Source of the DNA: Clostridia bacterium
GTDB lineage: Bacteria; Bacillota; Clostridia; Christensenellales; Borkfalkiaceae
NCBI GenBank assembly: GCA_017407325.1
Contig: JAFQWV010000022.1
Location: forward strand, 62,001-126,000
DNA: 64,000 bases
Direction: 5' to 3'
The notes under the pieces were generated by a model. That model was not told where the DNA came from. It was given only the letters and a program-made list of their open reading frames with translations, and searched no databases. Both the position numbers and the translations under genes were made by a program. Positions 2,476-38,763 of this stretch are shown piece after piece; position 1 is the first letter of the stretch, and the number at the start of each line of letters is the position of its first letter.

Positions 2476-2880
2476 ATGAAAAAACACCGTTTATTGACTT
2501 ATACGCTAGCTTTTTTAGGAGTGTTGGCGATTGTTTCTCTATTTTCAACCGAAGTAATTGCGTTTGCTGAAGGATTAGTTGCAGGTGGTGGCGAAGTCTC
2601 AACCGCTATCCCAGTACCCGACGGATATTTTTGGGCAATATTAATATTTTTCGTTCTTGATATAATCGCTATGGTGTTTCTAGTAAAGAATATTATAGTT
2701 TATATGAAGCTTACGAAAACTAATAAAGTGCTTTCAGTAATTCCATACGCTATCGCAACGGCGTTCTCGCTTAAGACGATAGAAATATTTTTAGCAATGG
2801 AAATTATACTGCTTTTAGCGCTTTATTTAACAAACAGAAGATTATCTAGAAAAATAAAAAACATCCGCACTAAAGAGTGA
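2476..2880 (+). CDS. Small membrane protein, unknown function
   Basis: This is a 134-residue protein with an N-terminal hydrophobic segment (about residues 7-30), a second at about 50-72, a third at about 85-115, and a basic C-terminal tail (RRLSRKIKNIRTKE). It starts 3 nt after the nagA stop, so it is translationally linked to that operon. I do not recognise the family. Its last codons form the 5' arm of the operon's terminator, and the TGA stop lies in the loop. Confidence 0.6.
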   Translation: MKKHRLLTYTLAFLGVLAIVSLFSTEVIAFAEGLVAGGGEVSTAIPVPDGYFWAILIFFVLDIIAMVFLVKNIIVYMKLTKTNKVLSVIPYAIATAFSLKTIEIFLAMEIILLLALYLTNRRLSRKIKNIRTKE

Positions 2881-2895
2881 GTGCGGATGTTTTTT
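2860..2895 (+). terminator. Intrinsic terminator overlapping the 3' end of the membrane protein gene
   Basis: An 11-bp perfect stem pairs AACATCCGCAC (2860-2870) with GTGCGGATGTT (2881-2891), with a 10-nt loop and a T tract. The left arm is coding sequence. Confidence 0.85.
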
Positions 2896-2896
2896 A

Positions 2897-3016
2897 ATGA
2901 AATGAAACTACTAGTTTCATGAAATGACGGAAAACCGTCATGTAATGACAAACTTGTTTGTCATGAAATGCAAAAATTTAATTTTTGCATTGTTGTCGCG
3001 AACTTTTCATTTCATT
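2897..3016 (+). repeat. Hairpin-linker cassette A (linker ATGAAAT)
   Basis: Four short hairpins lie in a row at 2904-2918, 2926-2939, 2947-2962 and 2970-2988. Each stem has a different sequence. Each hairpin is preceded by the same 7-nt linker: ATGAAAT at 2897, 2919 and 2963, ATGTAAT at 2940. The last hairpin is followed by ATTGTTGTCGCG (2989-3000), the end motif shared with cassettes B1, B2, C and D. An 18-bp perfect inverted repeat (2890-2907 and 3005-3022) encloses the block. It lies between two terminators of convergent genes. Function unknown. Confidence 0.8.
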
Positions 3017-19353: not shown

Positions 19354-19475
19354 ATGATTTGCAAGCGTTGCTTGCATGATTTGCTAACTGTAGTTAGCAT
19401 GATTTGCACTCTGCAAGCAGATTGCATGATTTGAAAAAACAAGTTTTTTCATTTTGGTCGAAAGCGCTTTGCGCT
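19354..19475 (+). repeat. Hairpin-linker cassette B1 (linker ATGATTT)
   Basis: Four hairpins lie at 19361-19375, 19383-19398, 19406-19425 (one mismatch) and 19433-19450. Each is preceded by an identical ATGATTT linker (19354, 19376, 19399, 19426). The end motif ATTTTGGTCGAA (19451-19462) is followed by a last hairpin, AGCGC-ttt-GCGCT. It meets cassette B2 tail to tail. Confidence 0.8.
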
Positions 19476-19499
19476 CCGTTAAAAATATATAATAATACG

Positions 19500-19691
19500 G
19501 CAATTTTTTAAAATTGCGCGACAATAATGCAAATCAAACTGATTTGCAAATCATGAAAGTTTGTAAAACTTTCAAATCACGAATAACGCAAGTTATTCAA
19601 ATCATGAAGATTTATCTTCAAATCATTTTTAAACGACAGTTTCGCATATCAAGCAAAACTTTGTTTTGCATATCGCGTAGCCATAGGCTAC
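19500..19691 (-). repeat. Hairpin-linker cassette B2 (linkers TCGATAT-like then ATGATTT)
   Basis: Read on the minus strand from 19691, hairpins at 19677-19691 and 19653-19669 are followed by GCGATAT and TTGATAT linkers. After an irregular unit come hairpins at 19606-19619, 19581-19598, 19555-19573 and 19529-19547, joined by ATGATTT or GTGATTT. The end motif ATTATTGTCGC (19518-19528) is followed by a last hairpin at 19500-19517. So two linker families are joined in one cassette, which converges on B1. The 450-nt gap 19312-19761 holds only these structures and the next promoter. Confidence 0.8.
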
Positions 19692-21651: not shown

Positions 21652-21681
21652 AAAAGTCGCAAGGTGTCCCTTGCGACTTTT
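21652..21681 (+). terminator. Terminator of the pectate lyase gene
   Basis: A 13-bp stem (A4 plus GTCGCAAGG with CCTTGCGAC plus T4) has a TGTC loop. Confidence 0.85.
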
Positions 21682-21697: not shown

Positions 21698-21838
21698 GCA
21701 AAACGATAGTTTTGCTCGATATGTTGCTTTACGCAACTCGATATGCGAAATAAATTTCGCTCGATATGTTGCCTTACGCAACTCGATAGCAATTTGAAAG
21801 CAAATTGCGTAAAGGTCGAGCAGTTTTTTAAAAACTGC
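21698..21838 (+). repeat. Hairpin-linker cassette C (linker TCGATAT)
   Basis: Five hairpins lie at 21698-21715, 21723-21737, 21745-21760, 21768-21782 and 21789-21808. They are separated by TCGATAT (21716, 21738, 21761) and TCGATA (21783). The end motif GTAAAGGTCGAG (21809-21820) leads into a last hairpin at 21820-21838. It fills the space between convergent genes. Cassette D has the same linker and nearly the same end motif on the opposite strand. Confidence 0.8.
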
Positions 21839-21882
21839 CGTCTATTTTTTATTAAAAACTTAGAAACCCATTATTGCGACGC

Positions 21883-38561: not shown

Positions 38562-38629
38562 TGTTAAACAAGGACGGACTGTCCTAATAATTAATTAAAA
38601 TCCTTACAAAAAACTATACGTTAATCGCG

Positions 38630-38763
38630 GAACGCGGAAGCGTTCACGACCTTAACGCAAGTTGAAAACTTGCATATCGAGTGGCGTTAGCAACATATCG
38701 AGCGAAACTTGTTTCGCATATCGCGCAAAGCAACGCTTTGCATATCGAGTAGCCAAAGGCTAC
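38630..38763 (-). repeat. Hairpin-linker cassette D (linker TCGATAT)
   Basis: Read on the minus strand, hairpins lie at 38749-38763, 38725-38741, 38702-38717, 38681-38694 (one mismatch) and 38657-38673. They are joined by TCGATAT or GCGATAT. The end motif GTTAAGGTCGTG (38645-38656) and a last hairpin GAACGC-ttcc-GCGTTC (38630-38645) follow. It is the mirror orientation of cassette C, with the same linker and almost the same end. Confidence 0.8.

Follow-up and report, generated by a model that had tools for sequence, protein, structure and literature searches.

To our knowledge, the heptamer repeats of bacteria have been noted for decades without a partner and the intervening sequences (IVSs) of rRNA genes without a mechanism, and the S23-type proteins, whose pentamer structure has been solved, have been assigned no function.

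In the 23S rRNA IVS of Coxiella, whose terminal stem measures 28 bp, tandem heptamers (GACAGAT) stand before the S23 ORF (PMC4990558). Xcc0516 forms a pentamer whose subunits are four-helix bundles (PMC3936711, PMC4990558), and 23S_rRNA_IVP genes have been noted in cas loci (PMC3936711). The same fold family includes Avd of diversity-generating retroelements, an accessory protein in a system that handles nucleic acids (PMC10053308). REP, BIME and REPIN elements are dispersed intergenic palindromes that form tail-to-tail dimers and have a conserved unpaired tetranucleotide beside the hairpin; the REP repeats linked to RAYT transposases carry GTAG or CGTC tags (PMC3733652), placed at one end of a single palindrome of 20-40 bp. 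Published heptanucleotide repeats (cyanobacterial STRR; TAACTGA, PMC4679880; GGGAATC of Xanthomonas, PMC4692102) are intergenic, occur in few to many copies and are sometimes inverted. In the accessible parts of these sources, no partner of the four-helix-bundle (4HB) family is named; in the elements described here, the units are spaced by hairpins.

Hairpin-linker blocks of the window

The window, a 64,000-nt stretch of DNA, is part of contig C14 of genome G000 (1.59 Mb, 28 contigs, 95% complete). An earlier note had described five blocks in it, each a series of short hairpins connected by constant 7-nt linkers. A de novo search for chains, defined as a 7-mer that recurs with at most one mismatch on both sides of a hairpin, returned exactly these five blocks, with the linkers the note had given: ATGAAAT in A, ATGATTT in B1 and B2, and TCGATAT in C, D and the outer part of B2. 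All five likewise contained the GTCG motif. The note had proposed a test for chance occurrence; since 20 dinucleotide-shuffled windows contained no chain and covariation was strong (see below), the blocks are not chance structures. The features are listed below with their matches to R1, a covariance model built from an alignment (A1) of 23 cassettes.

2858..2895, + strand: terminator-like hairpin with T-tract, immediately 5' of block A (read from the sequence)
2897..3015, + strand: block A, single arm; ATGAAAT three times and ATGTAAT, four hairpins, ATTGTTGTCGC, a short hairpin and closing ATTTCAT (R1 match at 2919-3014, E 4.8e-06)
19354..19691, no strand: B1 and B2 together, one two-armed, tail-to-tail element (from a fold with DNA parameters)
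19354..19478, + strand: block B1, left arm; ATGATTT four times, four hairpins, ATTTTGGTCGAA, a bulged terminal hairpin and CCG (R1 match at 19376-19478)
19479..19497, no strand: AT-rich centre separating the B1 and B2 arms, TTAAAAATATATAATAATA
19498..19691, − strand: block B2, right arm; ATGATTT/GTGATTT, ATTATTGTCGC and a terminal hairpin, with TCGATAT-type linkers in the outer part (R1 match at 19498-19605, E 3.1e-14)
21652..21681, + strand: terminator-like hairpin shortly 5' of block C (read from the sequence)
21698..21840, + strand: block C, single arm; TCGATAT three times (and TCGATA), five hairpins, GTAAAGGTCGAG, a terminal hairpin and CCG (R1, E 3.1e-16)
38628..38763, − strand: block D, single arm; TCGATAT/GCGATAT, five hairpins, GTTAAGGTCGTG, a terminal hairpin and CCG (R1, E 3.8e-16)

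All five copies are intergenic and have no 4HB ORF, and C and D each consist of one arm that lacks a counterpart. The ATTTCAT that closes block A (3009-3015) is the reverse complement of its linker and is thus a closing half-arm. Folded as single-stranded DNA, B1 and B2 together gave z = −7.15 and block C gave z = −7.04, values that no shuffled sequence equalled. In the minimum-energy DNA fold of B1 and B2, the left linkers at 19354, 19376, 19399 and 19426 paired in order with the right linkers at 19620, 19599, 19574 and 19548; however, the ensemble probability of each of these linker-linker pairs was only about 0.4, which counts against the reading that we favour below. A scan of the window with Rfam gave no match at the gathering thresholds, and a tRNA scan of it was likewise empty.

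A family of intergenic cassettes in the genome

The pattern TCGATATGN{6,24}CTCGATATG matched 71 times in G000, and the reversed pattern used as a control did not match there. R1 gave 102 matches at E ≤ 1. Among the best 99 of these 102, the linker families were TCGATAT (45), ATGATTT (28), ATAAATT (10) and ATGAAAT (9), with 7 copies unassigned. A constant motif, RTWNNKGTCG, precedes the bulged terminal hairpin (CG-N-G...C-CG, one bulged base), and GTCG itself was present in 83 of the 99 copies. Nearly all cassettes were intergenic: the midpoint lay inside an ORF (≥120 aa) in 4 of 99 cases, compared with 286 of 431 random points. The hairpin stems are drawn from a recurring repertoire whose order changes between cassettes.

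The cassettes form 18 tail-to-tail pairs (B1/B2 among them), in most of which the spacer is 15-20 or about 48-50 nt long; no pair is head-to-head. Both arms carried the same linker family in 11 of the 14 pairs with both arms assigned; the unmatched families in the other 3 speak against our main reading. Two further observations concern the cassettes and their surroundings. At C24:62387-62729, a TCGATAT cassette occurs in tandem copies with a 138-nt period, and the GTCG end is absent. Other dispersed repeats (GTCATTCTGAGCGAAAGCGTAAGAATC..., ACACCTCATCCGTCGC..., TAAAAGACTTAGAAACAAGCAAGACAAGG...) adjoin many cassettes on their 3' side.

High copy number, intergenic location, tail-to-tail dimers and a tag (GTCG) beside a bulged hairpin would also be expected of REP/BIME elements that a Y1 (RAYT) transposase mobilizes. 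In contrast to these elements, each arm here has 4-6 hairpins on a constant heptamer, and neither GTAG nor CGTC is found at the published tag position. Furthermore, a search for Y1_Tnp (PF01797) gave no match in the 95%-complete genome, whereas the control matched in 5 genomes, so that we regard mobilization by a RAYT as very unlikely. Reverse transcriptase (PF00078) also had no match in G000; therefore, mobilization by a group IIC intron or retroelement was rejected, and no Avd-type retroelement is present there. TIGR arrays were rejected since the units here are palindromic and lack guide-like spacers. The elements behave like REP/BIME or MITE elements but without the RAYT and its tags, and differ from IVSs in their location and in having no ORF. 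A literature search, which covered few subscription papers, turned up no named element built in this way, as the earlier note had supposed.

Stem pairing and covariation

The variation of stems with pairing kept, already remarked from the window alone, was borne out by the 23-cassette model: 84 alignment cells were changed on both sides and 1 of 453 on one side only. The covariation score of A1 was 0.394, versus 0.124 for shuffled and at most 0.106 for slid alignments; the structure was derived from the same sequences, which gives it an advantage over the slid alignments, yet the difference is large. The 230 hairpins of G000 contained 1367 Watson-Crick, 21 G-T and 23 mismatched pairs, and 421 hairpins from other Clostridia contained 2200, 29 and 51, respectively. 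This corresponds to a G-T share of 1.3-1.5% of stem pairs. Such scarcity would be expected if the stems were maintained as DNA, and it points to a stem structure that is probably kept as DNA.

The arrays could instead act as RNA, as hairpins in 3' UTRs or read-through transcripts that stabilize the transcript, terminate it or titrate a protein. Their strong folding and the many copies just 3' of terminators, tRNA or tmRNA genes would fit such a role. However, we consider it unlikely, because the low G-T share and the one-sided change in a single cell are unlike typical structural RNA, because arrays use both strands, and because a sigma70-like promoter lies 3' of the array in the copies linked to a 4HB gene. 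Of the two possibilities raised earlier, an RNA with several hairpins and a DNA-hairpin substrate, the latter is thus the better fit.

Arrays in other genomes and their association with a 4HB gene

R1, a linker-biased model applied with strict filters, gave no match in 60 relatives including six congeners, which within these limits counts against the reading that we favour below. In a linker-pattern scan of GTDB genomes, three TCGATAT-linked hairpins occurred in at least 113 stretches, nearly all of them in metagenome-assembled genomes of gut or rumen Clostridia. Among the matches listed, the few from Pontibacillus, Rhizobium and Planctomycetaceae had non-palindromic spacers and look unrelated. 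The same neighbourhoods contained arrays with other linkers (ATGAATT, GTGAATT, GTGAAAT, GTGAAGT, GCTAAAT, GTGATAT and GTGATGT). A pattern scan of viral contigs gave 219 matches, 4 of them with palindromic spacers (three contigs: L126, L146, L147); the remaining matches look like chance. Neither block C against phages nor block D against plasmids gave a BLAST match. An RlmD-like methyltransferase gene adjoins arrays in 10 loci, which is probably a neighbourhood common to related genomes.

The earlier note had also asked for a co-occurring protein gene. Clustering of the ORFs at TCGATAT-array loci identified a 117-aa 4HB protein (TIGR02436; PF05635) whose gene begins beside an array arm. The family is the S23/23S-rRNA-IVP and Avd-like family, and its closest solved structure, 2RLD, was deposited with five chains. 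At least 11 of the array-selected loci had a 4HB gene, nearly always within 150 nt of the array, against about 0.24 expected from gene density. When the 4HB genes of relatives were fetched regardless of arrays, most had a two-armed array upstream, which as a rule followed a hairpin and its T-tract; in at least 16 loci the upstream sequence also included a tRNA or tmRNA gene. Heptamer or hairpin-heptamer chains lay upstream of 29 of 47 4HB genes compared with 33 of 682 background windows, and complementary 6-mers were shared between the arms in 17 of 25 cases for real arms and in 74 of 600 for swapped arms (0 of 2000 permutations as good); these 4HB counts include near-identical loci (L425/L442, L419/L441, L431/L434) and are therefore somewhat inflated and not fully independent. 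In an independent phylum-wide set, chains were found upstream of 13 of 30 4HB genes and of none of 30 ParE-toxin control genes.

G000 itself has three 4HB genes, all with arrays (inverted linkers) directly upstream. Two points here count against our main reading: the linkers of these arrays are GTGAAAT, ATGAAGT and ATGTAAT, not TCGATAT or ATGATTT, and the link between TCGATAT and 4HB genes was seen only in genomes other than G000. Overall, the 4HB/S23 family is a concrete candidate for the linker-specific protein that had been envisaged, and would bind the heptamers.

The array stands immediately 5' of the 4HB promoter or start codon, as an operator in cis would if the gene were autoregulated; the dispersed copies would then be binding sites recruited by the host, not mobile DNA. 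We judge this improbable in view of the approximately 99 copies in a single genome that have no 4HB gene, the inversion of the arms and of the heptamers on either side of the ORF, and the insertions within 23S rRNA and RNase P RNA described next.

Heptamer repeats and insertions in structured RNA genes

4HB genes without hairpins had contiguous 7-nt repeats upstream instead, often inverted behind the ORF; examples are ATTAGTG (about 15 times) in Bernardetia, GTGAAAG/TGGAAAG in Treponema saccharophilum and GGAAGTC in Nostoc. Since these contiguous heptamers take the place of the array, the linker can be equated with the heptamer repeat unit. The earlier note had missed this, as well as the arrangement of arms in inverted pairs. 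Self-match of at least 0.8 at lag 7 was found for 11 of 47 4HB genes and for none at lags 4-6 or 8-12; in the phylum-wide set, 10 of 30 passed at lag 7 compared with 1-3 at other lags. By eye, nearly all 4HB genes had heptamer repeats, but only the counted figures are reliable. Complementary heptamers lie 3' of the 4HB ORF in, e.g., L497, L500, L510 and L521, and flank complementarity exceeded the 95% level of swapped flanks for 23 of 30 4HB genes versus 3 of 30 ParE genes.

Three 4HB loci with inverted heptamers are insertions, two within 23S rRNA (L510, L518) and one within RNase P RNA. In the latter (L521:1229-2003, − strand), a class A RNase P RNA gene is split by a 4HB ORF flanked by inverted heptamers, an arrangement analogous to the 23S rRNA IVSs. 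Like those IVSs, the elements studied here are connected with protein family PF05635, terminal inverted repeats and heptamers before the ORF, the last also seen in our two 23S insertions. Inverted heptamers able to form a stem occur in B1/B2, in the other pairs and at the 4HB loci. Unlike IVSs, the window copies lie outside 23S rRNA, in intergenic DNA, are ORF-less, have their heptamers separated by hairpins and belong to a set of about 100 copies in one genome.

Several bacteria have an excess of heptamer repeats, for which slippage has been proposed (PMC4679880). The whole pattern might accordingly be a neutral by-product, in which slippage makes the repeats and template switching keeps the palindromes perfect. 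It would leave unexplained the tie to one gene family and the inverted arms, the constant terminal GTCG hairpin and the presence or absence at orthologous sites, and we give it very little credence.

Presence, absence and plasmid contexts

An orthologous site at the 3' end of tRNA-Tyr differed among congeners, i.e., between species and not between strains of one species: G004 has an array and a 4HB gene, in G006 the array has a different linker and is not directly followed by a 4HB gene, and G002 has the terminator only. In L428, L453 and L454, part of the tRNA-Tyr 3' end is repeated downstream of the gene; these partial duplicates are possibly remnants of attachment sites. The 4HB gene is also found on plasmids. 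It lies between cas2 and cas1 in Anabaena and Nostoc (L486, L490), which fits the cas-locus genes cited above. In L483, L487 and L489 it is inside plasmid operons of a restriction-type context; its neighbours are a helicase-related or DUF1156 gene and a gene for a methylase or a HEPN-domain protein, and the junction carries short heptamer repeats.

The variation at tRNA-Tyr, the species-specific expansion and the plasmid contexts of 4HB genes argue for a putatively mobile element. The earlier suggestion that the cassettes are perhaps mobile therefore fits the copy number, the expansion and the difference at this one site, within a comparison that is between congeners only.

Discussion

We favour, with moderate confidence, the reading that the blocks are non-autonomous, MITE-like copies, some of them single-arm, of an element whose autonomous form would be a heptamer array with a gene for a pentameric 4HB protein. 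Because the arms are inverted, any linker of one arm can pair with every linker of the other, which explains the constancy of the linker within an element, its variation from one element to another and its length of 7 nt. The arms would fold as single-stranded DNA during replication or transcription, and the 4HB pentamer would bind the heptamers, possibly one per subunit; we hypothesize that one pentamer may bind about five. Host enzymes would then copy or move the element in trans into intergenic sites, putatively favouring terminator ends and the ends of structured-RNA genes.

A broader proposal is put forward tentatively, as possible rather than probable: 4HB (S23/IVP) proteins would define a new kind of mobile DNA, in which the pentamer reads heptamers and spreads an element that encodes neither a transposase nor an HUH enzyme or reverse transcriptase. 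Its forms would be the 23S rRNA IVSs, the heptamer repeats of bacteria and the hairpin cassettes.

The strong statistical link between 4HB genes and heptamer arrays joins heptamer repeats, rRNA IVSs and S23-type proteins. Within this set, the hairpin-spaced form is an unusual case, with a structure apparently conserved as DNA and not as RNA, and with linkers that covary between arms. The related elements before 4HB genes suggest that this family of mobile DNA has been little recognized, and they point to a candidate partner of the seven-base repeats of bacteria.
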